Shown here piece by piece: positions 5,501-23,386 of a stretch of DNA of 51,245 nt. Origin of the DNA: Patescibacteria group bacterium (GTDB taxonomy: Bacteria; Patescibacteriota; UBA1384; UBA12157; JAENIV01); NCBI GenBank assembly GCA_023485405.1, contig JAMCZU010000002.1:1-51245 (forward strand). Direction: 5' to 3'. The notes below the pieces were generated by a model. The model worked only from the letters and a program-made list of their open reading frames with translations. It did not search any database and had not been told where the DNA came from. Position 1 is the stretch's first letter. Every line of letters starts with the position of its first letter. Both the position numbers and the translations under genes were made by a program.

Positions 5501-5513
5501 ATGAGATAAAACA

Positions 5514-7729: not shown

Positions 7730-9383
7730 TTTTCTCCAAAAATTATTAATAGCCTGGGGTATATTTTGGGGTGTCTTAGGGATAGGTCTCTATTTTTTGG
7801 GACTTTTGGGTTTATTTTATCAGAATATAGTAATTGCTTACGGTTTAATCTGTTTTGTTGTTCTAGTATATTTTTTATTTAAGCAAAGTCCGCCAGCTGG
7901 CGAGTTCTCTGCAATCAAAAAAGATTGGGTTGTTGGTGTAATTTTAATTGGTTTTTTGGCTTTTGCCGTTTTAAATTTTCTAATTCTACTGGCACCGGAA
8001 GTTGGTTTTGATGCGCTCTGGTATCACTTAACTTTGCCAAAAATTTATCTGATGACGTACCATGTTTCTTATCTTCCTGGTGGACTACTTTATTACTCAG
8101 TCATGCCGCGACTAGCCGAAATGATCTATGGTTTTGGTCTGAGTTTGGATCATACGGGGATGTTGCCAAAAATTATTCATTATTTGTTTGGTTTTGCCTG
8201 GGCGGCGTCAACATATCTTTTCGCGCGTTTATTTTTAGGAAGAAAACATGCGTTACTCGTGTCTTTAATTTGTTATGGGACATATCTTACAACTTGGCTC
8301 TCACAGACTGCTTATATTGATTTAATTGTCGCTTTTTATTCGGCAATGGCACTTTGGGGAACATTTAAATATTTAGAAAATCGTCATCCAAATTATCTTT
8401 ATCTTTCGGCGATTTTTATGGGTTTAACTTTAGCGAGTAAACTTTATGGATTGATTTTGTTATTAGTGATCTTTGGTGTTTTAATTTCAAAGGCTAATTG
8501 GAAAATGACCATTCGTTTTACCGGAATTGCGATTGCGATTGTTTTACCATTTTATCTTCAAGCGTATTTTTCGACTGGTAATCCTTTTTATCCGGTCTTT
8601 TCAGTGCAGGAATCGGCTTTAACAATGTACACCGGTGGTTATACTAACTTAAGAGATTGGTATCTTGAAGGTTGGTGGCAGCATCTGCCCAATCTTTTTT
8701 GGGAAATGGTGGTTTATCGTTTCACCCCCATTTTTAGTTTAGTCTTTTTGGTTTTTTTCGCGAAAAATTGGCAAAAAATGTTGCCACTGCTAATTGTTTT
8801 TTTGAGTTTCTTTTTTCTCTGGTCTCTTAATCCTGTTCAGGAGCCTCGTTATTTTATTGTCATTTTGCCGGTGATAGCTACTATTTCAATCTATGTTCTA
8901 GCTAGTATCGAATGGAAAATATTTAAAGTGATCGCCATTGTTTTAGCATTAGTCGGTCTGATTTTTAATTTTTCTTATACTAAGAGCCAATTTAAGGAAA
9001 CACTAGAAGAAATTTTTGGCAAAAATCCACGTCAAAACTATCTTCAAGCAAGATTGACTCCACCGCGAAATTTTTATGATTTTTCAGGAACTTTTTCTCA
9101 AGAAATACAAGATAAAAAAGTCTTAACGGTTAATATTCACAATCTTTTTTATCTTAATTTTAATTTTTGGGATTGGAGCTTTATTGAAGATAAGTATGAC
9201 CCTAATGCGTCGGCGGTGACCATGGCTTCCGAGCTAAAAAATAATGGTTATAATTTTGTCTTAATTGGTCATTTAAGCGCTGCGCAGTGGTTAGGGTTAC
9301 CGTCGGACGAAGTAGACAAAAATTTTAAACTGATTCTTAAAGAAAACGATTTTTCGCTTTACAAAATTGGAGAAAATAAATGA
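7719..9383 (+). CDS. GT39-like integral-membrane glycosyltransferase (GT-C fold)
   Basis: A 554-residue protein with about 10-12 membrane segments and a C-terminal extracytoplasmic tail. LAPEVGFDALWYHLTLPKIY in the first outer loop carries the acidic residues expected of GT-C enzymes that use polyprenyl-phosphate sugars. The next gene is a GT2 polyprenyl-phosphate sugar synthase overlapping by ATGA, a natural donor supplier. A 12-base perfect palindrome (7891-7902) lies in frame and encodes the PPAG part of a KQSPPAGEFSA loop, possibly an inserted repeat. Confidence 0.75.
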   Translation: MKINFLQKLLIAWGIFWGVLGIGLYFLGLLGLFYQNIVIAYGLICFVVLVYFLFKQSPPAGEFSAIKKDWVVGVILIGFLAFAVLNFLILLAPEVGFDALWYHLTLPKIYLMTYHVSYLPGGLLYYSVMPRLAEMIYGFGLSLDHTGMLPKIIHYLFGFAWAASTYLFARLFLGRKHALLVSLICYGTYLTTWLSQTAYIDLIVAFYSAMALWGTFKYLENRHPNYLYLSAIFMGLTLASKLYGLILLLVIFGVLISKANWKMTIRFTGIAIAIVLPFYLQAYFSTGNPFYPVFSVQESALTMYTGGYTNLRDWYLEGWWQHLPNLFWEMVVYRFTPIFSLVFLVFFAKNWQKMLPLLIVFLSFFFLWSLNPVQEPRYFIVILPVIATISIYVLASIEWKIFKVIAIVLALVGLIFNFSYTKSQFKETLEEIFGKNPRQNYLQARLTPPRNFYDFSGTFSQEIQDKKVLTVNIHNLFYLNFNFWDWSFIEDKYDPNASAVTMASELKNNGYNFVLIGHLSAAQWLGLPSDEVDKNFKLILKENDFSLYKIGENK

Positions 9384-10066
9384 AATTATCAATCATCATC
9401 CCGGTTTTTAACGAAGAAAAGAATATTAGAGAAGTAATTTCCCAGGTTAAAAATATTCCAATTAGTATGCAAAAAGAAATTATTATTGTTGATGACGGTT
9501 CAAAAGACAAAACAAGAGAAATCCTTCAAAGTTATAGTAAAGATCCGTCCGTTAAAACTATCTTTCAAGATAAAAATTTAGGTAAAGGTTCGGCCATTCG
9601 TCGGGGTTTGGAAGAAGCAAAAGGCGATTTTATTGTGATTCAAGATGCTGATATGGAATATTCGGTGGCAGATTATCCCAAACTTTTGAAACCATTTTTA
9701 TTGGAAAAAGCTCAAGTTGTTTATGGCTCAAGATTTTTAGGAAAAATTTCGGGGATGCGCTGGCAAAATCGGCTGGCAAATAAAATTTTAACAACTACTG
9801 TTAATCTATTGTATGGTATTAGAATTACTGATGAGGCCACGGCTTACAAAGCTTTTCGTCGCGATTTGATTCAGAAGATACCCTTAAAATGTCAAAGATT
9901 TGAATTTTGCCCGGAGGTAACGGCTAAAATTGCCAAAAGAGGCTACAAGATTTTTGAAGTGCCTATTACTTACCGGGGTCGCACGAGTAAAGATGGTAAA
10001 AAAATCAAATTGCAAGATGCTTTTGAGGCTTTTTGGACGCTCATAAAGTATCGTTTTAGAAATTAA
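9380..10066 (+). CDS. Glycosyltransferase family 2, dolichyl-phosphate mannose synthase-like
   Basis: A 228-residue GT-A enzyme. IIPVFNEEKNI (6-16) binds the nucleotide, VDDGSKDKT (37-45) and IQDADMEY (87-94, DAD at 89-91) are the donor and metal sites, and YGSRFLG follows. There is no C-terminal membrane segment, as in soluble DPM1-type enzymes. It probably makes a polyprenyl-phosphate sugar used by the GT39-like enzyme encoded just upstream. Confidence 0.88.
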   Translation: MKLSIIIPVFNEEKNIREVISQVKNIPISMQKEIIIVDDGSKDKTREILQSYSKDPSVKTIFQDKNLGKGSAIRRGLEEAKGDFIVIQDADMEYSVADYPKLLKPFLLEKAQVVYGSRFLGKISGMRWQNRLANKILTTTVNLLYGIRITDEATAYKAFRRDLIQKIPLKCQRFEFCPEVTAKIAKRGYKIFEVPITYRGRTSKDGKKIKLQDAFEAFWTLIKYRFRN

Positions 10067-10070
10067 TAAT

Positions 10071-10619
10071 ATGAAAATTTTCCGAAAAATTATTTTAATT
10101 TTTATCCCCATTTTTGTTTTAGCCTGTTTTGTAGTTTATTGGATCCAACCAAAATTTAGTCTCTGGCAGATGGACAAATCGATTATTTTAAAAAAACAAG
10201 AATTACCTCTTTTAACGATGTTTTTGCCAGCGCGTCAAAATAATATTTTTTTGGTTGAGAGTGGCTTGCCGCAGTTTGCGTTTGCGGGGCCCAAGTTGAC
10301 ACTTTTTAATGGACAATACCAGTATAAATTAAAAATTATCCCATCTTGTAGTAATAAGGATTTAGGCTTTATGGATGTGACCCGAAAAAATGGCAATCTT
10401 GGGCTAGGGGCGAAAGAAATTATCGCACAGAAACAAGGTGAAACACAGGTAGAATCACTTAATTTTGAAGCCGATAATGCCTCTGATTATGAATTTCGGC
10501 TGTACTCTAAAGGTGAGTGTTCATTTGAGATTAAAAAAATTTGGCTTGAACGTCAAAAAGTTGATTTTCGAGCTTTTTTTCAAACAGTTTGGCAAAAAGC
10601 CCAAAGTATTATAAAATAG
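10071..10619 (+). CDS. Membrane-anchored hypothetical protein
   Basis: A 182-residue protein not recognised by family. One N-terminal membrane segment (about residues 6-24) is followed by an extracytoplasmic domain rich in beta-type sequence, with two Cys (in IPSCSNKD and KGECSFEI) that could form a disulfide. It sits 4 bases after the GT2 gene and before the hydrolase-like gene, so it probably belongs to the glycan operon and works at the cell surface. Confidence 0.6.
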   Translation: MKIFRKIILIFIPIFVLACFVVYWIQPKFSLWQMDKSIILKKQELPLLTMFLPARQNNIFLVESGLPQFAFAGPKLTLFNGQYQYKLKIIPSCSNKDLGFMDVTRKNGNLGLGAKEIIAQKQGETQVESLNFEADNASDYEFRLYSKGECSFEIKKIWLERQKVDFRAFFQTVWQKAQSIIK

Positions 10620-10644
10620 ATGAGTAATAATTGAGGAGGTTTAA

Positions 10645-11661
10645 TTGAAAAAGTTTTTCATTATTTTTTTTGCTCTCGCAATTGGTATCGGAGGGGGATA
10701 TTTTGCCTATAGGTATTGGGGTAACAGTCATCGAAAAGAGCCATTTATGTGGGGTGTGACGATGGGTCCGTCGGATTTAGGTAATTATAAAGCCGAAATT
10801 TGGAATAAACAGGCTAAAGTGGCTAAAAACTTGGGAGTTGGTTGGATTAGGCTCAGATTTGATTCAGAAAATATCGATCCTTTTGGGCGTAACGATGAGG
10901 AAATTACTATTTTAGAATCTTATGGTTTACAGACAGTTCTGATTATTGAGCAAGATGTGCGTAATAAAGGCGGCGATAATTATAAGGATGGTTATAAAGA
11001 TGGCTCGACAATTGCCGCGCATTATAAAGGGAAAATCAAGTATTATCAAATCGCCAATGAGGGTGGTGGTGAGTCAATTAAGCAGCCAACAATGAATGGT
11101 CAGGATGAATCTCAGTTTGACCAAACCAAATATCAAAAAATAGCCGACTACATCCGAGGAGCCTCAGAAGGGATCGCTTCAGCTGATCCTGGCGCCAAAA
11201 GAATTGTTAATTTGGGTTGGACCCACGTAGGTTATTTAGATAAATTAGTTAAAGATAAAATTCCTTTTGATATGATTGGGATTGATTGGTATGGTTGGAT
11301 GGGACCAATTGGTGAGAAGAAGTTGGAAAATGGCCAATTATTGGTAGATAGACTAAAAAGCTATAATAAACCTTTAATTTTTATGGAAGTTAACGCTGAC
11401 TCTCAGGGCAAAACGGTTTACGAAGAAAAACAATCGGAGTTTATTTCACAGATTGGTAAATGGGCCTATGAAAATCGAAGTTTCGTCAAAGGATTTTTTG
11501 TTTTGTCACTTTTTGACGGAGTTAACAATCCTAATGATAACGCTGAATATTTTGGTATTGTTCAAGCTAAAAAGAGTTCTGGTGGGACAATGGTACCTGG
11601 CGATCCTCGTAAGTCGTACTATACTTATCAGGAATTAATTAAAAAATATTCTGGACTATAA
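10645..11661 (+). CDS. Membrane-anchored glycoside-hydrolase-like protein (clan A TIM barrel)
   Basis: A 338-residue protein starting at TTG, chosen because GAGGAGG (10633-10639) sits just upstream. An N-terminal membrane anchor (4-22) precedes a (beta/alpha)8-type domain. IANEGGG places a candidate acid/base Glu at 139 after Asn138, and FMEVN places a candidate nucleophile Glu at 248; the strand-4 and strand-7 spacing is as in clan GH-A. It may trim or remodel the surface glycan made by this locus. Family and substrate are not assignable by eye. Confidence 0.65.
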   Translation: MKKFFIIFFALAIGIGGGYFAYRYWGNSHRKEPFMWGVTMGPSDLGNYKAEIWNKQAKVAKNLGVGWIRLRFDSENIDPFGRNDEEITILESYGLQTVLIIEQDVRNKGGDNYKDGYKDGSTIAAHYKGKIKYYQIANEGGGESIKQPTMNGQDESQFDQTKYQKIADYIRGASEGIASADPGAKRIVNLGWTHVGYLDKLVKDKIPFDMIGIDWYGWMGPIGEKKLENGQLLVDRLKSYNKPLIFMEVNADSQGKTVYEEKQSEFISQIGKWAYENRSFVKGFFVLSLFDGVNNPNDNAEYFGIVQAKKSSGGTMVPGDPRKSYYTYQELIKKYSGL

Positions 11662-12540
11662 AAATATTTTTCGCTCTAATAATTTTTTCCCGCGATTAAA
11701 TATACCAGATATTTCCTCTTGGGTTAATAGTTCTGAGAGAGTGTTTCGTAATGTTTTTTCGTTGTCTCTTAATATTTCTAATTTTGCCTGTAATTCTTTT
11801 GGCAAAGGAATGTTTTTAAGAGTTGGTGGATCGGCAGAGTTATCGTAAGCAATCATAAGTCTTGGACCTTTGATAGCAAATTGTGAAGCAAATTCTTCAT
11901 CAAAAAAAGTTAAAGAATGGTCAATTGCTTTTAGTCGTCTTTCTTTGACATTTTCTTCCCAAACAAGATTAGATTTTCGTCGATCGAGATTTTGAATAAT
12001 ATAGTCAAAAAGAGCAAGTTCTTCTAATGTTTTTTGGTTACTAAGTGCTTGGTCAGTTTCTTCGTCTGAAAGTGATTCTAACGATTCTCCCCAAATAAAT
12101 GGTCGGACTGACCCTTCTCCTTCGCCTAATGATCTAATAACTACTGGCATAGCAATATGATTTAATTCCAAGCTTTTAGCGACTTCCCATGTTGCAGCTT
12201 CTTTTTTCATGTAAGGGCTCGACTTTTCTGGTAATTGAGGTAAAAGACTTTTGTCTGTGCCTTTACTGATGCCACTTTCAGGTTTGTAAACGACTAATAG
12301 TTTTTTATTTTCTCCAGGAATAGCAATTTCAACTTCTAAGAGCAAATCATGATGTGCTTCTCCTATTAAGACGCGATCGGCATGTTTTGGTATTTTGGCA
12401 AAATGTTCTTCAATCGGTCGAACGTTTAAAATTTCTCCTTCTTTCATAATTTTTTCAAGTGAAGTTGGTTCAACTTTTTCCGGATTAAGATATTGTTCAT
12501 TAGTAATTTCCTCTTCTGAAGGTTGTAATTCTGGATTCAT
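11656..12540 (-). CDS. PI3/4-kinase-like (atypical) kinase
   Basis: A 294-residue protein. VVYKPESG (84-90) gives the likely ATP-binding Lys86, EAATWEVAKSL resembles the kinase helix C, DYIIQNLDRRKSNLV (179-193) gives a catalytic-loop Asp186/Asn191 pair, and AIDHSLTF (205-212) gives a metal-binding Asp207. This order matches bacterial PI3/4-kinase-like proteins. The target may be a protein or a small molecule. It converges on the hydrolase-like gene with a 6-base overlap and interrupts the glycan locus on the opposite strand. Confidence 0.6.
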   Translation of the reverse strand: MNPELQPSEEEITNEQYLNPEKVEPTSLEKIMKEGEILNVRPIEEHFAKIPKHADRVLIGEAHHDLLLEVEIAIPGENKKLLVVYKPESGISKGTDKSLLPQLPEKSSPYMKKEAATWEVAKSLELNHIAMPVVIRSLGEGEGSVRPFIWGESLESLSDEETDQALSNQKTLEELALFDYIIQNLDRRKSNLVWEENVKERRLKAIDHSLTFFDEEFASQFAIKGPRLMIAYDNSADPPTLKNIPLPKELQAKLEILRDNEKTLRNTLSELLTQEEISGIFNRGKKLLERKIFL

Positions 12541-12582
12541 TTTTTCCTTTCTTGTTTTAGTTTAATTAAAAATTAACTAATC

Positions 12583-12611
12583 TTCAAATTCAACTTATTA
12601 TCTGGTATACT
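12583..12611 (+). promoter_or_regulatory. Leaderless-type promoter
   Basis: TTCAAA, 17-base spacer, TATACT (12606-12611). The ATG at 12620 begins 9 bases after the -10 box, so transcription would start at or within a few bases of the start codon. Confidence 0.55.
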
Positions 12612-12619
12612 CAAATCAG

Positions 12620-14062
12620 ATGAAAGATCAATTTTCAAGAAATTTTTTGATTGCATTATTTGGCGCTCTTTTGGCAGTCGCCGTGGGTTTTTTAATTGCT
12701 AAAACCGCTTTTTTGGGGTTATTAATTATTCCTCTGGCAGTTATCGCTCTAATTATTGTTTATCTGGTTGTTCGGTCGCCTGAACTTGGTTGGCTTTTGA
12801 TTGTTTTCTTTTTACCCTTTGAAAGAGTACCTTCCTATGAAATAGGGGGAATTAATCTTAAAATCAACACCTTTTTGGGATTTCTAACCTTAATTGCCTG
12901 GATTTTAGCGTTAATGTTCAAAGGTAAAAAATACAAAGTTCAACCAAATTTTCTCAGCATTCCACTGTTTTTATTTGTCATGGCATTATTGCTTTCACTT
13001 GCTCAAGCAGTTAATTTTTCTCGAGCTGTTTCAGTTTTAATCTTTACTATATTTACAATTATTCTTTCAATTATGGCGGTTAATATGGTTTATTCAAAGG
13101 AAACTTTGCGTAAAACGATTTTAGTTTTATTTTTTTCGGCGTTAGTAGTGAGTCTTTTTGGATTGTTTCAGTTTGGCGGTGATGTGGTAGGATTGCCACA
13201 ATCCTTAACCCTTTTAAAAGAAGGATACACTTCCGTTGTTTTCGGGTTTCCCAGGGTGCAGGCTTTTTCAATGGAACCCTTATACTTTGCTAATTATCTT
13301 TTAATCCCCATTAGTGTTGGTTTAGCTCTTTTTATCAATCGAGTGGAGCCAATCAAACGATGGTGGATGGCTGGTTTAATCGGTTTAATCTTATTGAATT
13401 TCATTTTAACTGTTTCACGAGGTGGTTATTTGGGATTAATCGGCTCATTTTTAGTTTTAGGATTTTTGCTTTTTAAAAAGCTATTTAATTGGAAAACAAT
13501 TTTAATTGGCTTAGTGACAGTGATTATTGTTATTTACGGGGTGGCTTTTGCTCTGTCAAAAGGCGAAACTCGTGCCACAATTGAATTTTTAGGTCATATT
13601 CAGCTTCAAGATATAAATAATGGAGAATCGGTCGCGGGTAGATTGATTACCTTTAAACAAGGAATGCAAGCTTTTTACACCAGTCCTATTTTTGGCATTG
13701 GCCCGGGCAATTATGGTCCGTGGGCGACATTTTACCCGGACGCACGACCAATAACTGGTTGGCCGATCGTTAATAATGAATTTATCGAAATTTTGGCTGA
13801 AACTGGGCTGGTTGGGATGATTACTTTTTCTTTATTGATCTTATTTTTGAGTGTCAGGACTTTTATGGCTTTAAAATACGCCCATGATGTTTTTCTAAGA
13901 TCCGTCTTAATTGGACTTTTCGCCGCTTTTGTTGGAATCTTAATTCAGTATAATTTTATGTCAACTCTTTATATAATCCATGTATGGGTGTTGATAGGAT
14001 TATTGGTAGCGGTGCAGAATATTATATTAAAATCAAAAATTAAAAATCAAATATCAAAATGA
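12620..14062 (+). CDS. O-antigen ligase family (Wzy/WaaL-like) membrane protein
   Basis: A 480-residue protein with about 11-12 membrane segments. The large outer loop ends in VAGRLITFKQGMQAFYTSPI then FGIGPGNYG, the Wzy_C signature region. It probably polymerises or ligates lipid-linked glycans outside the membrane. The last ten residues (KSKIKNQISK) and the TGA stop are supplied by the left arm of an AT-rich palindromic repeat (14042-14062), suggesting that the original C-terminus was replaced by the repeat. Confidence 0.8.
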   Translation: MKDQFSRNFLIALFGALLAVAVGFLIAKTAFLGLLIIPLAVIALIIVYLVVRSPELGWLLIVFFLPFERVPSYEIGGINLKINTFLGFLTLIAWILALMFKGKKYKVQPNFLSIPLFLFVMALLLSLAQAVNFSRAVSVLIFTIFTIILSIMAVNMVYSKETLRKTILVLFFSALVVSLFGLFQFGGDVVGLPQSLTLLKEGYTSVVFGFPRVQAFSMEPLYFANYLLIPISVGLALFINRVEPIKRWWMAGLIGLILLNFILTVSRGGYLGLIGSFLVLGFLLFKKLFNWKTILIGLVTVIIVIYGVAFALSKGETRATIEFLGHIQLQDINNGESVAGRLITFKQGMQAFYTSPIFGIGPGNYGPWATFYPDARPITGWPIVNNEFIEILAETGLVGMITFSLLILFLSVRTFMALKYAHDVFLRSVLIGLFAAFVGILIQYNFMSTLYIIHVWVLIGLLVAVQNIILKSKIKNQISK

Positions 14063-14125
14063 AAATTTAAAATTCAAAAATAATTCTTTTTACATTATTC
14101 TTTGTCATTTTGATTTTTGATATTT
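14042..14125. repeat. AT-rich palindromic repeat, copy a
   Basis: The left arm 14042-14062 and right arm 14105-14125 are inverted and agree at 19 of 21 positions by eye. Both end in the word ATCAAAATGA when read outward in. The element lies between two O-antigen-ligase genes and overlaps the 3' end of the first. It belongs to the loose family also seen at 16988, 19011, 36170 and 38966. Confidence 0.7.
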
Positions 14126-14143
14126 GCATTTTGCATTAACATT

Positions 14144-15325
14144 ATGATTTATTTAATTTCTTTAATCTTACTATTACTGCCGACTTACTTAATTCGTTTT
14201 TCGATATTTAATATTCCAACGACTTTTTTGGAAATTTTAATATACATTATTTTTATTTATGGTCTTTTTAGGGCTCGAAAGACAGGTTTTAGAGCGATTT
14301 CCTTAAAAATTATTTTGCCAATCGTGCTTTTAATTATTGCCTTGACTATTTCAACTGTTGTTTCCCCTGATAAAAGAGCGGCTTTAGGTGAATTTAAAGG
14401 TTTTTTTATTGATCCTATTTTGGTTTTCTGGCTTATTTTTCAATTTGTCAAAGAAAAAGATTTACCTAAAGTTTTTTGGAGTTTAATTTTTTCTGGAACT
14501 TTTGTGGCGGTTCACACCATTATTCAGAAATTATTAGGCAATACTACTTCTGATGGGCGGGTAATTGGCATTTTTGGCTATTCACCAAACTTTGTGGCTT
14601 TATTTTTGGCACCAATTACGGTTTTAGTTGCGGCTTATGGATTTCAATTCATGATTCAAAAACGGTGGTTTTTAAGTATTAGTGCTTGGTTATTAGTTAT
14701 TTTAAATTTTATTGCCATTTATTTTTCTGGGAGTCGTGGAGGAATTTTGGCCATTGCTGCCGGCCTTGGTATTTATGTAATTTTAAACTTTTGGAGCTGG
14801 ATTAAAACGCGACTTTCGGCCCAAATTATGATTGGTATTTTAATTATTATGGCTATTTATACTTCATGGATATTATTTCGGCCAGATTTTACGGTGACCC
14901 AAACTTCCGGTGGTCGGGTAGCAACTTCTAATAATTTACGTTGGCAGATTTGGGAGACTTCTTTAGAAATGATTAAAAATCACCCGATTTTAGGAGTAGG
15001 TTTGGGTAATTTTCAAAATGCTTTTTCGGAATTGACCAAGAATCGAGGTAATTTTCCGGAATATATTACCCCGCAGGCGGCTACGCCACACAATATTTTT
15101 CTGATGTTTTACCTTGCAACCGGTATTTTGGGTCTAGTTGCTTTTCTTTGGCTCTTGGTTTTATTTTTCCGCGAAGGCTTAAAAAAACTAAATTCAAAAT
15201 CGGTCGTGATTATGTTGGCGGTCCTTTTTTCAATCATTGCCTACGGTTTAATTGAATCTTCTATTTGGAAGAATGATCTAAGTATTATTTTTTGGACAAT
15301 GGGGGGACTAATTTGGATTATTTAA
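14144..15325 (+). CDS. O-antigen ligase family membrane protein
   Basis: A 393-residue polytopic protein. ATG 14144 was preferred to a TTG 27 bases upstream, which lies in repeat DNA. The Wzy_C-type region is LRWQIWETSLEMIKNHPI then LGVGLGNFQ followed by TPHNIFLMF. It is related in architecture to the upstream ligase-like gene; the two may act on different glycans, for example one polymerase and one ligase, which is inference. It overlaps or abuts the next GT39-like gene. Confidence 0.8.
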   Translation: MIYLISLILLLLPTYLIRFSIFNIPTTFLEILIYIIFIYGLFRARKTGFRAISLKIILPIVLLIIALTISTVVSPDKRAALGEFKGFFIDPILVFWLIFQFVKEKDLPKVFWSLIFSGTFVAVHTIIQKLLGNTTSDGRVIGIFGYSPNFVALFLAPITVLVAAYGFQFMIQKRWFLSISAWLLVILNFIAIYFSGSRGGILAIAAGLGIYVILNFWSWIKTRLSAQIMIGILIIMAIYTSWILFRPDFTVTQTSGGRVATSNNLRWQIWETSLEMIKNHPILGVGLGNFQNAFSELTKNRGNFPEYITPQAATPHNIFLMFYLATGILGLVAFLWLLVLFFREGLKKLNSKSVVIMLAVLFSIIAYGLIESSIWKNDLSIIFWTMGGLIWII

Positions 15326-16986
15326 AACAAAACTTTGAAAAATTTGCTTTAGTTTTTATTCTTCTTATCTCTTTAACCCTGATGATTTTTTCGAGTGCTT
15401 CAGATTCCCTGACTGTTGATGAAAAAGTTCATATTTCGGCGGGTTATCTTCACACTTGGAAGGGAAATTATCTTTTTAACAGCGAGCATCCACCGCTTTT
15501 AAATGATTTGGCAGGGTTTTTTGCTCGGGCGGCTAAGCCAAATGTACCAGCCGTGCCAGCAAATTTTACTGGTGGAGACCAGTGGGAATATGGCGACATG
15601 TTTTTTTATTTGTCGGGCAATAACATTGATAAGCTTATTTTCTGGGCCCGCCTACCTTTTATTTTCTTAACTTTAGGTTTAATTTATCTGGTTTTTTTAT
15701 GGGCAAAAACGCTTTTTGGCGCGAAAGCAGGCTTGGTAGCGGCCACTTTAACTGCTTTTTCACCCAATATCTTAGCCCACGGTCGTTTGGCTACCACCGA
15801 TATTGGAGTGACTTTTTTCTTTCTTTTAACCTGCTGGGCCATACGTAAATATTACCTAAAACCAAATGTTAAAAACGCCGTATTTTTAGGACTAGCTGTG
15901 GCTTTAGTTTTACTTTCAAAGTTTTCTGGTTTAGTTATTTTGCCAATTGTTTTTTTAAGTCTTATGCTTTTGTGGTTTTTGAAAAAACCAAAATTTACTA
16001 CTTCTTTAGGTCAATTTCTTTTGATTTTAGCAATTCCATTAGTTTTGGTTTGGGGAACTTACGCCTTTTCGATGCGTTCCGATTTAATTTCTTTGCCACC
16101 GGTCTATATTACATCTAAAATATTAGGTTACAAGAATCTTTCTTCTCCATTGTCAAAGTGGTTAATTGTTCCTTATGACAAAGCTATTCAAGGTTTCGAA
16201 ATTCTTTCTGACCACAATACCTCTGGTCATTGGGCCTATCTTAACGGCGAGGTGGGTTACAATGGTTGGTGGTACTATTTTCCCTTGGTGATGCTTTACA
16301 AATTACCTTTGACGGAAATTATTTTATTAGCTTTAACGATATTTATATTTTGGAAAGTAAAGCTTCGTCCACCAGGCAGTTGGTTTGATTATTTTATCCT
16401 CTTTTTCCCACCCTTATTATTTTTGGCTATCTCGATGATTGGTCGAATTGACATTGGGATTCGTCATATTTTACCCATTTTGCCATTTTTCTATATTTTT
16501 ATAAGTAGCCTAGCTAATTTTAAAAATAAGATTTTTCAAAAATTAATATTTGTTTTGGTGGGAATCGAAGTAATAATTTGTATTCTAGCCTTTCCCAATT
16601 ATCTAACCTATTTTAATCAGATTGCCGGCGGAGCAAAAGGTGGAATTAAGCATCTTTCTGATTCAAATTTAGACTGGAATCAGAATATGAAAAGATTTGG
16701 GATTTATGCCAAAGAAAACAATATTAAAAAAGTTTATGAACTTTGTTGGGATGGGTATAGTTTTTCTGCTCAAGGGGTTCAAGCGGAAATTTTACCTGCC
16801 TCGCCTGACGCGAGTCAAGGCGGGCCTAATTCGCCGGTTAAAGGTGTGGTGGTCATTTGCGCTCAACAGATGGTGGTGCCGCCGGATGATTTTGACTTTG
16901 GGTGGGTTACAAAACATCCGCCGGATACGGTGGTGGGGAACGCGATGTATGTTTGGCGGTTTGATAAAATGCCTGATATAAATTAA
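15313..16986 (+). CDS. GT39-like membrane glycosyltransferase (paralogue 1)
   Basis: About 557 residues with 10-12 membrane segments. No in-frame ATG is available. TTG 15313 has the G-rich stretch 15301-15306 as a possible ribosome site; TTG 15292 is the alternative. The outer-loop block VDEKVHISAGYLHTWKGNY and SEHPPLLNDLAG resembles ArnT/PMT-type enzymes (DE pair). It shares near-identical DNA with the following paralogue at 15645-15840. In frame near the C-terminus is a GC-rich palindrome (16795-16825, PASPDASQGG) that the paralogue lacks. Confidence 0.8.
   Translation: MDYLKQNFEKFALVFILLISLTLMIFSSASDSLTVDEKVHISAGYLHTWKGNYLFNSEHPPLLNDLAGFFARAAKPNVPAVPANFTGGDQWEYGDMFFYLSGNNIDKLIFWARLPFIFLTLGLIYLVFLWAKTLFGAKAGLVAATLTAFSPNILAHGRLATTDIGVTFFFLLTCWAIRKYYLKPNVKNAVFLGLAVALVLLSKFSGLVILPIVFLSLMLLWFLKKPKFTTSLGQFLLILAIPLVLVWGTYAFSMRSDLISLPPVYITSKILGYKNLSSPLSKWLIVPYDKAIQGFEILSDHNTSGHWAYLNGEVGYNGWWYYFPLVMLYKLPLTEIILLALTIFIFWKVKLRPPGSWFDYFILFFPPLLFLAISMIGRIDIGIRHILPILPFFYIFISSLANFKNKIFQKLIFVLVGIEVIICILAFPNYLTYFNQIAGGAKGGIKHLSDSNLDWNQNMKRFGIYAKENNIKKVYELCWDGYSFSAQGVQAEILPASPDASQGGPNSPVKGVVVICAQQMVVPPDDFDFGWVTKHPPDTVVGNAMYVWRFDKMPDIN
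16795..16825. repeat. GC-rich palindromic insert inside a coding region
   Basis: CCTGCC (16795-16800) pairs with GGCGGG (16819-16824), and TGAC (16806-16809) with GTCA (16814-16817) around GCGA. It is translated in frame as PASPDASQGG. The adjacent paralogue joins its flanking residues with about ten fewer amino acids at this point. Confidence 0.65.
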
Positions 16987-16987
16987 T

Positions 16988-17077
16988 AATTTTCAATTTT
17001 AAATTTCAAATCAATTTTAAAATTCGAATTTCGAATTTGAATTAAAATTCTAAATTTAAAATTTGAAATTTATATTA
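16988..17077. repeat. AT-rich palindromic repeat, copy b
   Basis: An imperfect palindrome built from AAATTTCAAATC- and AATTTTAAAATTC-type words, centred on AATTCGAATTTCGAATT. It fills the whole gap between the two GT39-like paralogues. The word order matches the copy inside the GT2 gene at 19011-19098. Confidence 0.7.
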
Positions 17078-17078
17078 T

Positions 17079-18674
17079 ATGATCTTAAATTTTCTAAAAA
17101 AATATTGGATTGCTGGAGTACTAGGTATAATTATCCTTGTCTCATTTTTGTTAATGTTTTTTTCTGCCAAATCAGACTCGGTTACCAATGATGAAAAAGT
17201 ACACATCACAGCTGGTTATTTGCACGTTTGGAAAGGCAATTACCTTTTTAATAGCGAGCATCCACCTTTACTTAATGATTTGGCAGGCCTTTTTGCAAAA
17301 TTAGCTAGACCAAATTTACCAGAAAAACCGCTTTCTTCTTTTAATTCCGGGGCTGATCAATGGGAGCTTGCTGATCTTTTCTTTTATAACTCGGGAAATA
17401 ATGTTGATAAAATTGTTTTTTTTGCGAGATTACCTTTTATTTTCTTAACTTTAGGTTTAATTTATCTGGTTTTTTTATGGGCAAAAACGCTTTTTGGTGC
17501 AAAAGCAGGCCTGGTAGCGGCCACTTTAACTGCTTTTTCACCCAATATTTTAGCGCACGGTCGTTTGGCCACCACCGATATTGGGGTGACTTTTTTCTTT
17601 CTTTTGACTTGTTGGTTACTCAGAAAATATTATTTGAAATCAACTTGGCAAAATGCTTTATGGCTAAGTTTAGGTATTAGCTTTGTGCTTTTAGCCAAAT
17701 TTTCTGGAGTAATTATTTTGCCGGTGATTTTTTTAGGGTTGATATTTCTTTGGATTAATAAAAGACCAAAACTTCTTCTATTTTTAGGACAAATTTTTAT
17801 TTTAATCATTTTGCCAATTATGATGATTTGGGCTCTTTATATTTTTTCCTCGCGAGAAAACTTAATAAATTCCTCAGCACTAATAATGCCTTTTAAACAG
17901 TTTGTTATCGGTTTAAAAACAATCATAAATCATAATAGCCAAGGACATCTGACTTATCTTAATGGCAAGTTAAGTAATCAAGGTTGGTGGTATTATTTTC
18001 CCTTAGTTCTATGGTATAAAATGACTTTGCCAGAACTAACATTATTGAGTTTTTCAATTGCTACTTTCTTCTTGATTGAAAAACCCAGAATCAATTCTTT
18101 TGACGAATTTTTAATTATTTTCCCACCCTTATTGTTTTTAGCTGTTTCAATGATTGGGCATATTGATATTGGCATTCGCCATATTTTAGTTCTTTTGCCG
18201 TTTTTTTATATTTTCATTAGCTATTTGGTTAACAATCAAGATCGTTCTTTGAAATTAATATTGCCAATATTAATTAGTGCTCAAGTAATAATTTGTATTC
18301 TAGCCTTTCCGAATTATATTGCTTATTTTAATCAAATTGCCGGTGGAGCAAAAGGTGGAATTAAGCATCTTTCTGATTCAAACTTGGATTGGGATCAAAA
18401 CATGAAAAGATTTAAAAAATATGTTCAAGAAAATAAAATCGAAAAAGTGTATGAAGATTTTTATAATGGCAATTCTTTAACTTATTATGGGATAAATTAC
18501 GACGATGTACCCAAAAAACCGATTAATGGTGTTGTGGCAATTTCGGCGCAATGGCTAGTAGTTTCCCGAGATAGATTCGATATTGGTTGGGTGAAGAAAT
18601 ATCCGCCTGATGAGATTATTTCTAATGGCATTTATATTTGGCGATTTGATCTAAAACCGGTAGAATTAAGATAG
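17079..18674 (+). CDS. GT39-like membrane glycosyltransferase (paralogue 2)
   Basis: A 531-residue paralogue of the preceding gene with the same outer-loop blocks (NDEKVHITAGYLHVWKGNY, SEHPPLLNDLAG) and about 10-12 membrane segments. A segment around 17425-17620 is almost identical at DNA level to 15645-15840, and KGGIKHLSDSNLDW near the C-terminus is also shared, while the regions between are much more diverged. This points to tandem duplication with later local gene conversion. It probably uses a polyprenyl-phosphate sugar, perhaps from the GT2 encoded next. Confidence 0.8.
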   Translation: MILNFLKKYWIAGVLGIIILVSFLLMFFSAKSDSVTNDEKVHITAGYLHVWKGNYLFNSEHPPLLNDLAGLFAKLARPNLPEKPLSSFNSGADQWELADLFFYNSGNNVDKIVFFARLPFIFLTLGLIYLVFLWAKTLFGAKAGLVAATLTAFSPNILAHGRLATTDIGVTFFFLLTCWLLRKYYLKSTWQNALWLSLGISFVLLAKFSGVIILPVIFLGLIFLWINKRPKLLLFLGQIFILIILPIMMIWALYIFSSRENLINSSALIMPFKQFVIGLKTIINHNSQGHLTYLNGKLSNQGWWYYFPLVLWYKMTLPELTLLSFSIATFFLIEKPRINSFDEFLIIFPPLLFLAVSMIGHIDIGIRHILVLLPFFYIFISYLVNNQDRSLKLILPILISAQVIICILAFPNYIAYFNQIAGGAKGGIKHLSDSNLDWDQNMKRFKKYVQENKIEKVYEDFYNGNSLTYYGINYDDVPKKPINGVVAISAQWLVVSRDRFDIGWVKKYPPDEIISNGIYIWRFDLKPVELR

Positions 18675-18681
18675 GTTAAAT

Positions 18682-19473
18682 ATGTTTTTATCGGTTATTA
18701 TCCCGGCTTACAATGAGGAAAAGCGACTTCCAGCTACTTTGCAAAAAGTTCGGGATTATTTAGACCACCAAAATATCACCTACGAGGTGATAGTGGTTAA
18801 CGATGGTTCAACCGATGACACTTCCAAGGTGTCAGTGAGGTTAATTAAGGATTGGCCAAATTTTCGATTGATTGATAATAAAAAAAATCGGGGGAAAGGG
18901 GCGGTGGTAAAACTTGGGATACTTGAGGCCAAAGGTGATTGGCGGCTGTTTATGGATGCGGATGGGTCAACAGAAATATCAGAATTGGATAAATTCTGGC
19001 CATATGTTAAAAATTTCAAATTTCAAATTTCAAATTTCAAATCAATTTCAAAATTAGAATTTCAAAATTCGAGTTTGAATGAAAATTTATCATTTGAAAT
19101 CATCATAGGTTCAAGATATCTGGATAAAGATTCGATTAAAATTAAACAACCACTGAACCGAAGAATTGTTTCGCGGCTGGGCAATTTATTAGTGCGAATT
19201 TTATTGGGGATCAAGTCGGTTGATACTCAATGCGGGTTTAAATTGTTTTCGGCGCGCGCGACTGAAAAGATTTTCCCATTACAAACGATTACGCGTTGGG
19301 GTTTTGATATAGAAATTTTAGCCATTGCCATCAAAAAAGGTTATAAAATTAAAGAAGTGCCGGTTGATTGGCGCGATGCCGCAGGCTCACAAGTTAAAAA
19401 ATCCGCCGCTTTTAAGACTTTAAAAGAACTCATACAAATAAAGTGGAATATGTTAAAAGGGAAATACAAATAA
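18682..19473 (+). CDS. Glycosyltransferase family 2 (polyprenyl-phosphate glucose/mannose synthase-like) carrying in-frame repeats
   Basis: A 263-residue GT-A enzyme: IIPAYNEEKRL (6-16), VVNDGSTDDT (38-47), FMDADGSTE (90-98), IIGSRYL (141-147) and ITRWGFDIEIL. Between FWPYVK and FEIIIGSR, where relatives run directly on, there are about 27 extra residues (KFQISNFKSISK and so on, 111-137) encoded by an AT-rich repeat at 19011-19098. Two short palindromes also lie in frame, at 18774-18792 and 18816-18837. The frame is kept through all three, so the gene is probably still functional. It is the last gene of the glycan run. Confidence 0.85.
   Translation: MFLSVIIPAYNEEKRLPATLQKVRDYLDHQNITYEVIVVNDGSTDDTSKVSVRLIKDWPNFRLIDNKKNRGKGAVVKLGILEAKGDWRLFMDADGSTEISELDKFWPYVKNFKFQISNFKSISKLEFQNSSLNENLSFEIIIGSRYLDKDSIKIKQPLNRRIVSRLGNLLVRILLGIKSVDTQCGFKLFSARATEKIFPLQTITRWGFDIEILAIAIKKGYKIKEVPVDWRDAAGSQVKKSAAFKTLKELIQIKWNMLKGKYK
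18774..18792. repeat. Short palindrome in the GT2 gene
   Basis: TATCACCT-ACG-AGGTGATA, 8-base perfect arms. A close relative, ACATCACCT-ATG-AGGTGATGT, is intergenic at 42427-42447. Here it encodes ITYEVI, residues expected in this enzyme family, so it may be chance. Confidence 0.4.
18816..18837. repeat. 22-base palindromic word, copy 1 (in GT2 gene)
   Basis: TGACAC (18816-18821) and GTGTCA (18829-18834) form the arms, and the word continues to 18837. The same 22 bases recur exactly at 38027-38048. Here it is read in frame across the DDTSKVSV segment. Confidence 0.75.
19011..19098. repeat. AT-rich palindromic repeat, copy c (in frame in GT2 gene)
   Basis: It begins with four tandem AAATTTC units, then AAATCAATTTCAAAATT, with the same word order as copy b. 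It is translated as extra residues 111-137 of the GT2 enzyme with no frameshift or stop. Confidence 0.75.
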
Positions 19474-19483
19474 AATTTGGTAT

Positions 19484-19516
19484 AAAAAAAGCCCCCGGGA
19501 TAGAATCCTGGGGGCT
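19484..19516 (-). terminator. Rho-independent terminator of the PEP-CTERM gene
   Basis: A 12-bp stem, AGCCCCCGGGAT (19490-19501) with ATCCTGGGGGCT (19505-19516), one G-T pair and a 3-base loop. The A-run 19484-19490 gives a T-tract on the minus strand. It may also limit readthrough from the GT2 gene. Confidence 0.85.
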
Positions 19517-19536
19517 TGTAAGAATGTGTAATATTT

Positions 19537-20433
19537 CTATTGGCGGCGTCGAAGGCCGAAGCCAATGAGGCCGACGAGGCCACTTGCGAGCGCCAGCAAA
19601 CTGCCGGGCTCAGGGACAGGCGATGCTTTCCAATACAAGTCTCCTTGTTGGAAGATCGCACCAGAACCATCGGCTCCGATGAGATCCCAATCGCCGCCGT
19701 GGCCGATGACATACGGCGTATCGAGCTTTCCATTCGAGACTTTCGAGGCATAAGCTGTTATGCCATCGAACGCTACGCCCCACATCCAACCGCCACCATA
19801 GGCTATTTCTGAAAAGGCAAAATTCGTGTCTTTCCAATTACCATTGCCGGTGCCGCTATAGACATGGTAGCCTTGGTTAAGATAATCTCTGGTATTTTGG
19901 CCCACAACGAAAATATTATTGTTGGGTCCAAACGTGGCGCCAGTGATCCACCATGGTCCGGATACGCCCGCGAATGGGATATATCCTTCGGTTGTACCAT
20001 CGTGGTTAGCGCGCAGGAGGAAGCTAACTTGCATATTTCCGAACAGTACGTCGCCCGCGCTGTTTCCCGTCGGTCGGATAAGAGGGTTAATAAACTGTGC
20101 CGCTTCAGTTACATGCGTGATTGAACTGCCGTTCCAGATCGAGGCAAATCCTTGTTCGTCGTAAAACGCAACTTTGCCTCCGGCATAGTAAGGATTGCGA
20201 CCCTTGATACCGTAGGTATTCCAAGAGCCGTCGTAAGCAACTTCGCCGATGACACCACTTTTGGTGGCAAGCCATCGGGAGTTAGCGTAACTGCTGGACA
20301 TGTAGTCCAGCCCAGTTGGCGCTGTTAAAGGCGACAACTTGAACAGATTGCTTTCGCGGCCGGCGCTGGTGGTACTAGCCACCATAAGTGTCGATAAGAA
20401 CGCCAGAACTACCAGAGAAAATACCTTTTTCAT
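19537..20433 (-). CDS. PEP-CTERM sorting-domain protein, predicted secreted
   Basis: A 298-residue protein. Residues 1-24 form a signal peptide (MKKVFSLVVLAFLSTLMVAS...SAG). The middle is rich in Gly, Trp, Tyr and Asn with repeated short beta-strand-like units, possibly a beta-propeller. The tail has VPEP (273-276), a hydrophobic helix and a closing RRRQ, the full PEP-CTERM signal that exosortases recognise. No exosortase is visible in this window. Its DNA is clearly GC-richer than the neighbours, which suggests transfer. It is monocistronic, with its own consensus promoter, structured leader, AAGGAGG ribosome site (20444-20450) and terminator. Short ORFs opposite it are shadows. Confidence 0.88.
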   Translation of the reverse strand: MKKVFSLVVLAFLSTLMVASTTSAGRESNLFKLSPLTAPTGLDYMSSSYANSRWLATKSGVIGEVAYDGSWNTYGIKGRNPYYAGGKVAFYDEQGFASIWNGSSITHVTEAAQFINPLIRPTGNSAGDVLFGNMQVSFLLRANHDGTTEGYIPFAGVSGPWWITGATFGPNNNIFVVGQNTRDYLNQGYHVYSGTGNGNWKDTNFAFSEIAYGGGWMWGVAFDGITAYASKVSNGKLDTPYVIGHGGDWDLIGADGSGAIFQQGDLYWKASPVPEPGSLLALASGLVGLIGFGLRRRQ

Positions 20434-20454
20434 TGTAAATGTGCCTCCTTAGCA

Positions 20455-20515
20455 CTTGGAACAGATATAGCCTCCTTTCAGCCCGATTGCTGAAAGAAAG
20501 CTAGCCTATTCCAAG
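20455..20515 (-). promoter_or_regulatory. Long hairpin in the 5' leader of the PEP-CTERM gene
   Basis: On the transcript an outer stem CTTGGAA/TTCCAAG (20509-20515 with 20455-20461) encloses a 15-bp stem, TAGCTTTCTTTCAGC with GCTGAAAGGAGGCTA, around loop AATCGG. The stem pairs a GGAGG decoy, while the true ribosome site lies just 3' of the structure. It could be a stability element or a regulatory switch. Confidence 0.65.
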
Positions 20516-20526
20516 GCAACTAAAAT

Positions 20527-20555
20527 ATTATACCTTAAATTAAGGCATTTGTCAA
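20527..20555 (-). promoter_or_regulatory. Consensus sigma70 promoter of the PEP-CTERM gene
   Basis: TTGACA (20550-20555), exactly 17 bases, TATAAT (20527-20532). The spacer holds the perfect palindrome CCTTAATTTAAGG (20533-20545) touching the -10 box. Confidence 0.85.
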
Positions 20556-20587: not shown

Positions 20588-21286
20588 TTATCTAATTTTC
20601 ATTGAATTAATTACAATATCGTAAGCGCTACTTTCTGTAGAATCTGTTTTTAAATCAATGGTGACGATATCTTTGCTCGTGTTTTGAATGGCAGTATGAT
20701 TTCTACCACTCTTTACCCATTGAATTGCTGGTGAACCATTTAAAGTTAGCGAGTTGTAGTCCGAAATATTGTTTCTTAAAGCATAGTTTTTCAAATCTTC
20801 GTAAGGCGGAGTAGCACATGTGACAGGTGAATAATCAGTATGAACATCAGCGCTACCAGCGCTAATAATAATGGAATTATCTGAACTGTATGCTCCTTCT
20901 GTGTAGACCTCTAACCATGTAGCACCGCCTACCATAGGTGTTCCGCCCGTTCTTCTGACTAATAAATTGGAAGGATACTTAAAAGAAATTGTGATATTAC
21001 AGTCTAAGCTTCCTGTATTAGTGGAAGGAATAGTAGCTTCAAAACTTTTAGTTTCTACTGCTGGTGTTGAAGTTGCCGATGGTGTTTGATTGCCTGTCGG
21101 TGTTGTTGTCGTCCTTGCTGATGTCGACGGTGAAACTGTAGCTGATTTAGTTGGTGTTGGGCTAGTGGTGGGTGAAACAATACTTTTGTTTCCTTTGTTG
21201 TACCAATAAGTAAAGCCGCCACCCAAAACTAAAACAGTGGCTAGCACGACCCAAAGCCAAGTTCGAACTTTAATTTCGGTAGTCAT
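20588..21286 (-). CDS. Membrane-anchored protein with Ser/Thr/Pro linker and PsbP-like domain
   Basis: A 232-residue protein. A membrane segment at about 10-29 is followed by a Ser/Thr/Pro-rich linker (about 37-80), then a globular domain (about 82-232) with ISFKYPSNLLVRR and a late NSMKI block, similar in layout to PsbP-like domains. Two Cys (in LDCNI and VTCATP) could bond outside the cell. It is probably a surface or extracytoplasmic protein of unknown job. A similar but broken gene lies at 31923-32576. Confidence 0.6.
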   Translation of the reverse strand: MTTEIKVRTWLWVVLATVLVLGGGFTYWYNKGNKSIVSPTTSPTPTKSATVSPSTSARTTTTPTGNQTPSATSTPAVETKSFEATIPSTNTGSLDCNITISFKYPSNLLVRRTGGTPMVGGATWLEVYTEGAYSSDNSIIISAGSADVHTDYSPVTCATPPYEDLKNYALRNNISDYNSLTLNGSPAIQWVKSGRNHTAIQNTSKDIVTIDLKTDSTESSAYDIVINSMKIR

Positions 21287-21341: not shown

Positions 21342-21578
21342 CTATTGTTTTCTAAGTAATTTCGTAAAATCTTCCGGTGAAATTTTAAAATCCCTGAGAA
21401 TTTGTCTTAAAAGACCTTTGCCGATATTTTCTCCCGAATGAAATGGAATAGTTGTCCAACGTCCATCAGGATGTTTCCAGACTTGATGACTACCTTTTTG
21501 TCGGTAAAAAGAAAAACCACATTTTCTAATAATTTTTGTTAGATCTTTGGCAGTTAAAGATGGTAATTTGGGAGCCAT
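21342..21578 (-). CDS. hicA: HicA-family toxin (mRNA interferase)
   Basis: A 78-residue protein of normal HicA size. The double-stranded-RNA-binding-like fold shows KIIRKCGFSFYRQKGSHQVW with catalytic-type His31 and GKGLLRQILRDFKIS. HicA toxins cleave mRNA and are silenced by HicB. It follows hicB by one base in the same operon, the antitoxin-first order. Confidence 0.88.
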   Translation of the reverse strand: MAPKLPSLTAKDLTKIIRKCGFSFYRQKGSHQVWKHPDGRWTTIPFHSGENIGKGLLRQILRDFKISPEDFTKLLRKQ

Positions 21579-21579
21579 T

Positions 21580-21783
21580 TTAAACTTTTAATTTATCTTG
21601 GGAGATAAAATCAATTCTAATTTTACGAGCTTCTAAATGAAGTTCGATTGCTTCTTGAATACGTTCTAAAGCTTCTTTGTAGGTTTTACCTTGAGTATAA
21701 CAACCTTGAATGATGGGTGTAGAAGCAACATAAAATCCGTCTTCATCTTTTTCAATAATAATAGGAAAATTATAATTAGCCAT
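21580..21783 (-). CDS. hicB: HicB-family antitoxin
   Basis: A 67-residue partial RNase H-like fold: IIIEKDEDGFYVASTPIIQGCYTQGKTYKEALERIQEAI. There is no C-terminal DNA-binding domain, so it is a short HicB that may not autoregulate by itself. On its strand a TTTACA...TATAAT promoter lies just upstream. It is the first gene of the hicBA pair. Confidence 0.85.
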   Translation of the reverse strand: MANYNFPIIIEKDEDGFYVASTPIIQGCYTQGKTYKEALERIQEAIELHLEARKIRIDFISQDKLKV

Positions 21784-21875: not shown

Positions 21876-22283
21876 ATGGAAAAATTATTTCGTCGTCGCG
21901 GAGTGCGACAATTTATTAAATTTGGTATTGTTGGCGCCTCTTCGACGGTGATTGATTGGGGGATATTTTATTTTTTAAATTTAACTTTCGGCATTTATTA
22001 TTTAACAGCTAAAGTTTTATCTTTTTCGATTGCTGTTTTTAATTCTTTTATTTGGAACCGACGCTGGACATTTCGGTCAACTGATCCTAGTCACGGTAAA
22101 GAATTTACAAAATTTCTGATTATTGCCTTAGTTGGTCTATCTCTAAATGCTTTAATAATGTATTTAGCAGTTTCAATTTTCCATACCAGAAAAATTTTTG
22201 GTTTAGCTTTTGCGACAGGAATTGTGACTTTTTGGAATTTTCTGGCTAATAAATTTTATACGTTTAAACACTCACAAGCATGA
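21876..22283 (+). CDS. GtrA-family membrane protein
   Basis: A 135-residue protein with four membrane segments. The start FIKFGIVGASSTVIDWGIFYFL, the middle NSFIWNRRWTFRS and the end FWNFLANKFYTFKH are the family's signature blocks. GtrA proteins are thought to help flip polyprenyl-phosphate sugars. It overlaps the next GT4 gene by ATGA, so both probably act in surface glycosylation. Confidence 0.9.
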   Translation: MEKLFRRRGVRQFIKFGIVGASSTVIDWGIFYFLNLTFGIYYLTAKVLSFSIAVFNSFIWNRRWTFRSTDPSHGKEFTKFLIIALVGLSLNALIMYLAVSIFHTRKIFGLAFATGIVTFWNFLANKFYTFKHSQA

Positions 22284-23386
22284 AAATAGGTATTGACGCC
22301 CGGATGTATCGGTCAACAGTGGCTGGCATCGGGCGCTATTCGCAAAATTTAATCAAGAATCTTTTAGCTCTCGATAAAAATAACGAGTATATTTTATTTA
22401 TGACTTTGGCTGATAAAAAAGAGTTTGAAAATTATTTCATTGAAAATTCATTGAAAATTGAAAATTATAAATTGAAAATTGTCGTAGTTGATATTCCACA
22501 CTTTAGCCTGGCTGAGCAGACCAAATTGCCGAAAATTTTAGAAAAAGAAAATTTAGATTTAATGCATTTTTTAAATTTTAATTATCCGATGCGATACAAA
22601 GGTAAGTTTATTACGACGATTCATGATTTAACTTTACTTTTTTATCCCCAAGCCGCCAAGGATATGAATTTGATTAAACATTTGGGGTTTCGTCTGGTGA
22701 TGAAAAAAGCTTGTCAAAATGCGACCAAAATTATTGCAGTTTCTAAAACGACCAAAAAAGATATTATTAAAAAATTTAAAGTGCCAAACGAAAAAATCGC
22801 AGTCATTTACGAAGCCGCTGACGACCCCACTTCGCTCCGCCATGTGGCGGAGCTACGAGGGGCAAGCAAAAAAAATGCTGACAAGCCAATTATTCTCTAC
22901 GTTGGTCAATTTCGTCGCCATAAAAATTTAAAAGGCTTAATCGAAGCTTATCAAATTCTAAAACAAGAATTGCCTTGTAAGTTAGTGATTTTAGGAAAGA
23001 AAGAAAACTTGAATCTTGACATTTCTTCTTTAAAAGATGATATTGTAATGCCGGGCTTTGTGTCAGATGAAGATTTAAAAATGTGGTATAAAACGGCTTC
23101 GGTTTTTGTGATGCCAAGTTTTTACGAAGGTTTTGGTTTGCCGGGGCTGGAAGCGATGATGGCTGGGACGCCGGTGGTGGCCTCTCGAACGGGATCTTTG
23201 CCAGAAATTTATCAAGATGCTGCTTTATATTTTGACCCCTTTAATTCAAGAGATATTGCTGCTAAAATTAAAGAGGTTATTATAAATAAGAATTTACATG
23301 ATAAATTAATTCAAAATGGTTTGCGAATTTCGCGTGTTTACAGTTGGAAAAAGACAGCTGAAGAAACACTCAAGCTGTACAAATAG
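22280..23386 (+). CDS. Glycosyltransferase family 4 carrying two in-frame repeat inserts
   Basis: A 368-residue GT-B enzyme: MKIGIDARMYRSTVAGIGRY at the start, ILYVGQFRRHKNLKGLI, and MPSFYEGFGLPGLEAMMAG with the EX7E pair. Residues 52-69 (NYFIENSLKIENYKLKI) come from an AT-rich repeat-like stretch (22434-22486). Residues about 183-195 (PTSLRHVAELRG) come from a GC-rich palindrome (22825-22862). Both keep the frame and fall in loops before and between core blocks, so activity may survive. Confidence 0.88.
   Translation: MKIGIDARMYRSTVAGIGRYSQNLIKNLLALDKNNEYILFMTLADKKEFENYFIENSLKIENYKLKIVVVDIPHFSLAEQTKLPKILEKENLDLMHFLNFNYPMRYKGKFITTIHDLTLLFYPQAAKDMNLIKHLGFRLVMKKACQNATKIIAVSKTTKKDIIKKFKVPNEKIAVIYEAADDPTSLRHVAELRGASKKNADKPIILYVGQFRRHKNLKGLIEAYQILKQELPCKLVILGKKENLNLDISSLKDDIVMPGFVSDEDLKMWYKTASVFVMPSFYEGFGLPGLEAMMAGTPVVASRTGSLPEIYQDAALYFDPFNSRDIAAKIKEVIINKNLHDKLIQNGLRISRVYSWKKTAEETLKLYK
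22434..22486. repeat. AT-rich word repeat, copy d (in frame in GT4 gene)
   Basis: Repeated ATTGAAAATT-type words (TCATTGAAAATT, then TTGAAAATTGAAAATT, then AAATTGAAAATTG) within the coding region. It resembles the other AT-rich copies in word use but is shorter and lacks a clear palindrome. Confidence 0.5.
22825..22862. repeat. GC-rich palindromic insert in GT4 gene
   Basis: CCCC (22825-22828) pairs with GGGG (22859-22862), and TCCGCC (22836-22841) with GGCGGA (22846-22851) around ATGT. The arms between pair imperfectly. It is GC-rich against an AT-rich gene and stays in frame. Confidence 0.65.

Follow-up and report, generated by a model that had tools for sequence, protein, structure and literature searches.

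PEP-CTERM surface proteins of a Patescibacteria genome lacking a detectable exosortase

Introduction

PEP-CTERM proteins were defined by their co-occurrence with EpsH, in a survey in which every positive bacterium had an outer membrane, the median number of tails was eight, and Chlorobium tepidum was the single exception without EpsH (Haft et al. 2006; PMC1569441). In systems of this exosortase A type, a signal peptide and a diverse ectodomain precede a VPEP motif, a hydrophobic helix, and an arginine cluster. Similar tails occur on several unrelated proteins of one genome, the gene surroundings are of an exopolysaccharide type, and the proteobacterial genes use a sigma-54-type site.

Here we analyze a PEP-CTERM gene in a stretch of 51,245 nucleotides (the window), which is one contig (C8) of a Patescibacteria draft genome, G000, that comprises 832,514 bases in 37 contigs and is 94.85% complete, with a contamination estimate of 0.24%. 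Its H+-PPase drew a mixture of CPR and other matches, the best (73%) from a Berkelbacteria MAG, which supports kinship with the CPR but does not point to a genus. The protein architecture, the presence of several unrelated proteins with similar tails, and the gene surroundings are all as in the PEP-CTERM/EpsH systems. G000 differs from them in that no exosortase was detected, only three tails are present as opposed to a median of eight, the window gene has a consensus sigma-70 promoter rather than a sigma-54-type site, and Patescibacteria are generally held to be without a classical outer membrane. Like G000, Chlorobium tepidum has few PEP-CTERM proteins and no EpsH homolog (PMC1569441); unlike G000, it possesses an outer membrane, and its state is plausibly due to loss of the system, whereas for G000 acquisition by transfer is the likelier route and a module has been duplicated. 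Patescibacteria have been documented to gain genes horizontally from groundwater bacteria (PMC12455944), and our literature search, the coverage of which was not complete, found no paper on PEP-CTERM proteins or exosortases in Patescibacteria.

Results

The 298-residue open reading frame on the minus strand at 19537–20433 is a real gene, the product of which is divided into a signal peptide (about residues 1–24), an ectodomain (25–272), and a tail (273–298). The tail, VPEPGSLLALASGLVGLIGFGLRRRQ (19540–19617, minus strand), comprises the motif, the hydrophobic helix, and the arginine cluster in 26 residues at the extreme C-terminus, and scored above the curated cut-offs of both PF07589 (24.7 bits versus 20.7; residues 272–298 of 298) and TIGR02595 (21.0 bits versus 16), as expected from the original prediction of a full PEP-CTERM tail. 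The same search gave no match at E ≤ 0.001 across 14 control genomes, so chance is a negligible source of this result. By sequence inspection, n-, h-, and c-regions are visible at the N-terminus, and a Sec signal peptide, MKKVFSLVVLAFLSTLMVASTTSA (20362–20433, minus strand), is predicted, with an A-X-A-like signal peptidase site (TSA followed by G). No transmembrane segment lies between this peptide and the tail, according to inspection and to a low-confidence single-sequence AlphaFold2 model (mean pLDDT 38.8), in which helices occur only at residues 2–20 and 276–297 and the body is beta-rich. Over its whole length, the protein had no relatives in the genome_contigs, viral_contigs, or plasmids collections, and hence no donor could be named. 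Profile comparison with HAF-repeat-like PEP-CTERM proteins of a second G000 contig (C6) and of related genomes matched the tail alone. Designed beta-trefoils were returned as weak PDB sequence matches only, and we do not believe them to be relatives.

The gene had been thought to stand at the end of a large glycan locus; it instead lies within one. Profile searches placed a flippase-family protein, several glycosyltransferases, and two Wzy_C ligase-family proteins at 4046–19473, PMT_2 proteins were also found on that side, and GtrA-like and GT4 genes are located on the other side (21876–23386). Thus, exopolysaccharide biosynthesis genes of the kind that accompany PEP-CTERM/exosortase systems are present, while no XrtA-system marker scored above its cut-off. 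Nor is the tail alone in the genome: a genome-wide search exposed a further PEP-CTERM gene on each of contigs C6 and C29, bringing the total to three genes on three contigs, and both additional proteins have signal-peptide-like starts. The C6 gene has GT4 and PIG-L-like deacetylase genes as neighbors in one direction and an ABC transporter in the other, and the C29 gene lies between gyrB/gyrA and restriction-modification-like genes. All three have open frames and ordinary genes on both flanks. The stop of the C29 gene (L026 9693–10622, minus strand) overlaps the start of a 61-residue, single-transmembrane open reading frame, to which it is possibly translationally coupled.

Judged from their sequences, the C8 and C6 genes are paralogous two-gene modules. 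In each, a partner gene is positioned upstream on the same strand; that of the window (20588–21286, minus strand) encodes 232 residues with a single N-terminal transmembrane segment and a linker rich in S, T, and P, and the first ~80 residues of the two partner proteins are 46% identical. The partner is N-anchored, and belonged to no enzyme family above cut-off in Pfam or NCBIfam. Directly upstream of it, two small genes (21342–21783, minus strand; 78 and 67 residues) resemble HicA/HicB toxin-antitoxin genes by eye.

The region between the two genes of the window module, and that beyond the tail, harbor a series of elements with counterparts on C6. A sigma-70 promoter (TTGACA-17-TATAAT; 20527–20555, minus strand) matches the consensus at 12 of 12 positions, and its C6 copy at 11 of 12. 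The 111-nt leader that follows folds at −43 kcal/mol (z = −6.1, as compared with −3.2 on C6) and forms a long hairpin (20456–20514, minus strand), in which five pairs have changed on both sides between C8 and C6, a signal that was lost when the partner columns were slid; with two sequences only, compensatory change is suggestive here. A small hairpin with the Shine-Dalgarno sequence AAGGAGG (20441–20455, minus strand) is like that of the C6 copy, and an intrinsic terminator, AAGCCCCCAGGATTCTATCCCGGGGGCTTTTTTT (19483–19517, minus strand), has a similar sequence with a weaker stem 3′ of the C6 gene. The leader belongs to no known RNA family: in Rfam, both loci had nothing but chance matches below threshold. 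Nucleotide identity between C8 and C6 was 0.83 for the promoter, 0.69 for the leader, 0.62 for the signal peptide, 0.79 for the tail, and 0.70 from the 3′ end to the terminator, whereas that of the ectodomains (0.496) was no better than for shuffled sequences (0.500 ± 0.017). Within the tail (pS 0.36, pN 0.14), the VPEPGS motif differs by synonymous changes only, while the transmembrane part drifts.

In a search of 60 relatives with the leader and signal-peptide DNA, the full match occurred only on C6 and C8, and the rest showed little beyond the promoter, a string also present on contig C16 of G000 (88% over 34 nt). Neither the partner gene nor the C8/C6-type leader accompanies the C29 gene. 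From the shared partner gene and leader, we infer that the duplication probably took place within the lineage.

The original prediction that the gene is GC-richer than its surroundings, and possibly transferred, gained weight from codon composition. The window gene has a GC content of 0.52 and a GC3 of 0.55, the latter far outside the distribution for the 47 other open reading frames of the window (0.287 ± 0.044; z = 6.1), and the C6 gene is likewise an outlier (GC3 0.53, z = 13). The GC rise is limited to the window open reading frame (3′ flank 0.38, promoter region 0.31), and the adjoining partner genes, unlike the PEP-CTERM genes, have a recipient-like GC3 (0.28 on C8, 0.25 on C6). On this composition, the PEP-CTERM coding sequences were probably acquired horizontally. 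Because high GC3 is retained in two strongly diverged copies, a single old transfer followed by duplication fits poorly; the coding part may have been acquired twice, or gained or replaced repeatedly.

A compositional shift of this kind could also arise from an assembly chimera or bin contamination, and some PEP-CTERM loci of relatives, for example that on a contig of G014 with a GC content of 0.53, may be contaminants. In the window, however, the shift follows the boundaries of the open reading frame exactly, and the elements from promoter to terminator have counterparts, 60–80% identical, on a second contig and are therefore not copies of one artifact. Together with the ordinary flanks on three contigs and the low contamination estimate, this makes a chimera unlikely for the window gene, and chimerism or contamination a very improbable account of it. 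A different view is that the genes are recently transferred passengers, useless to the cell and heading for loss, in keeping with the unameliorated codon composition, the sporadic distribution, and the precedent of Chlorobium tepidum, where one or two tails without EpsH were read as a possible degenerate system (PMC1569441). Yet all three frames are open and, if the module was duplicated in this lineage, the consensus promoter, the compensatory leader change, and the excess of pS over pN in the tail would point to selection after duplication. We consider it quite unlikely that the genes are mere passengers.

The exosortase expected in the same genome as PEP-CTERM proteins was not found. No exosortase or archaeosortase was recovered from G000 by PF09721, by TIGR04178 even at E ≤ 10, or by a CPR-exosortase profile (A2), and no LPXTG sortase by PF04203. 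The absence of an exosortase from view, initially noted for the window, thus extends to what is detectable genome-wide. Since TIGR04178 detected the exosortases of relatives (31–60 bits), its negative result for G000 is informative. A conventional exosortase might nevertheless reside in the unassembled portion of this 37-contig draft, as roughly 5% of the genome is possibly missing, enough to hide one such gene, and G001, a member of the same family, carries an exosortase-family gene. That gene is XrtG-like, though, and its neighboring tail is different; moreover, none of the 10 other PEP-CTERM-positive genomes has an above-cut-off exosortase, so incompleteness alone is insufficient. An exosortase hidden in this way is improbable.

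Across 119 Patescibacteria genomes, PEP-CTERM tails were present in 11 (G000 included) and exosortases above the TIGR04178 cut-off in six (G001, G004, G011, G067, G068, and G101), and no genome had both. With such small numbers the lack of overlap is not statistically remarkable; even so, tails and exosortases show none of the coupling by which the system is defined. Within the class to which G000 belongs, 8 of 55 genomes had PEP-CTERM genes and no detected exosortase. Two PEP-CTERM-positive genomes (G021 and G102) had TIGR04178 matches only below cut-off, in frames broken by stops. G027, a member of the same class, has a tandem pair of PEP-CTERM genes and a solitary one, on native-looking contigs; the genes of the pair (L027 12868–14345) are 2 bases apart, and their ectodomains differ while their tails begin almost identically, with VPEPSSLLAL. 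In G040, a PEP-CTERM gene (L035 719–1372) is situated between apparent L1- and L10-like ribosomal protein genes on a 4.9-kb contig.

The exosortases of relatives have WNC-GWQS, N--R, and FHDY-type motifs or variants thereof, with the segment containing the expected catalytic cysteine absent from the G001 copy. Those of G001 and G004 are XrtG-like, scoring 58 and 80 bits, below the XrtG cut-off of 102.75. These systems resemble G000 in that they occur in Patescibacteria and, in G001, G004, and G068, adjoin a protein whose C-terminal tail is built along similar lines. They differ in that the enzyme is present and no tail matches PF07589, the tails instead being of the types PTLTE[LI]LF..., IVPEAALLLG..., and IPE[FY]G.... 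At the XrtG-like loci of two relatives (L018 904–1905 and 2453–3160; L022 868–2046 and 2047–3420), a glycosyltransferase-like gene follows and a tailed protein, a candidate substrate ending in PTLTE[LI]LF.IL.G..VFLG.K.GVIK.KK, precedes. At the G068 locus (L020 1444–3497), the adjacent candidate substrate has the tail IVPEAALLLGLPSLFGLWYARRKKKKK, and several proteins with IPE[FY]G or VPEYG tails are candidate substrates at that of G101 (L017 872–3734).

Discussion

A Patescibacteria genome that carries a known sorting tag but no detectable enzyme to act on it is a real and well-supported oddity. The explanation we favor, which we regard as moderately probable, is that these are horizontally gained PEP-CTERM surface genes with expression signals of the recipient type, and that the tail serves as a plain C-terminal membrane anchor. 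The coding sequences would have been acquired from a bacterium of higher GC content, and at least one would have become fixed in a self-contained module comprising the upstream membrane protein, the strong sigma-70 promoter, leader, signal peptide, ectodomain, tail, and terminator. Duplication of that module would have given rise to the C8 and C6 copies, after which the ectodomain was presumably replaced or diverged beyond recognition, with the ends responsible for expression and targeting being kept. The protein would be exported by Sec and its N-terminus removed by signal peptidase, the tail would act as a stop-transfer anchor that stays in the cytoplasmic membrane, its arginines on the inner side, and the beta-rich ectodomain would be exposed at the cell surface with no cleavage by an exosortase. 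What argues against a plain anchor is that VPEPGS has been kept through silent changes, although no plain anchor needs this motif; selection in the donor, prior to transfer, could be the source of its conservation.

Because only silent changes separate the two copies of the motif, a processing enzyme has to be considered. The tails might be processed by an enzyme that exosortase, archaeosortase, and sortase models do not see, be it a diverged exosortase or an unrelated intramembrane protease, so that, in a cell with no classical outer membrane, the surface protein would end up cleaved or transferred. Three separate G000 proteins retain VPEP[GS]S, the motif is more conserved than the transmembrane helix, several genomes of the class have PEP-CTERM genes but no detected exosortase, and exosortase-family proteins do exist in some Patescibacteria. 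Against this, neither three exosortase models, among them one that finds all of the relatives' exosortases, nor the sortase model produced a candidate, the N-anchored partner protein matches no enzyme family above cut-off, and the exosortase loci of relatives have other tails. We therefore hold such an enzyme to be unlikely. The original suggestion of an unrecognized sorting system received no positive evidence in G000, where the tail can anchor alone, while it fits some of the relatives, which have exosortases, three of them beside candidate substrates with other tails. A broader and rather doubtful form of this idea is that some Patescibacteria employ a cassette for ectodomain exchange, in which promoter, RNA leader, signal peptide, tail, and terminator are fixed and surface domains are interchangeable, and that the tail is recognized by a non-exosortase enzyme of a single-membrane cell.

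A near-complete Patescibacteria genome that has three PEP-CTERM proteins, and in which neither exosortase nor sortase is detectable, suggests that such tails can spread and persist in the absence of the enzyme; if so, a PEP-CTERM annotation does not by itself amount to evidence for sorting by an exosortase. Most notable among the results is the apparent swap of the ectodomain inside a conserved export and anchor cassette. Two of the three genes belong to a duplicated, apparently regulated module, and our comparisons provide evidence for a conserved expression and anchor module around exchangeable ectodomains. This module hints at how an episymbiont-like cell might vary its surface proteins, the ends for expression and anchoring being kept while the displayed domain is changed.
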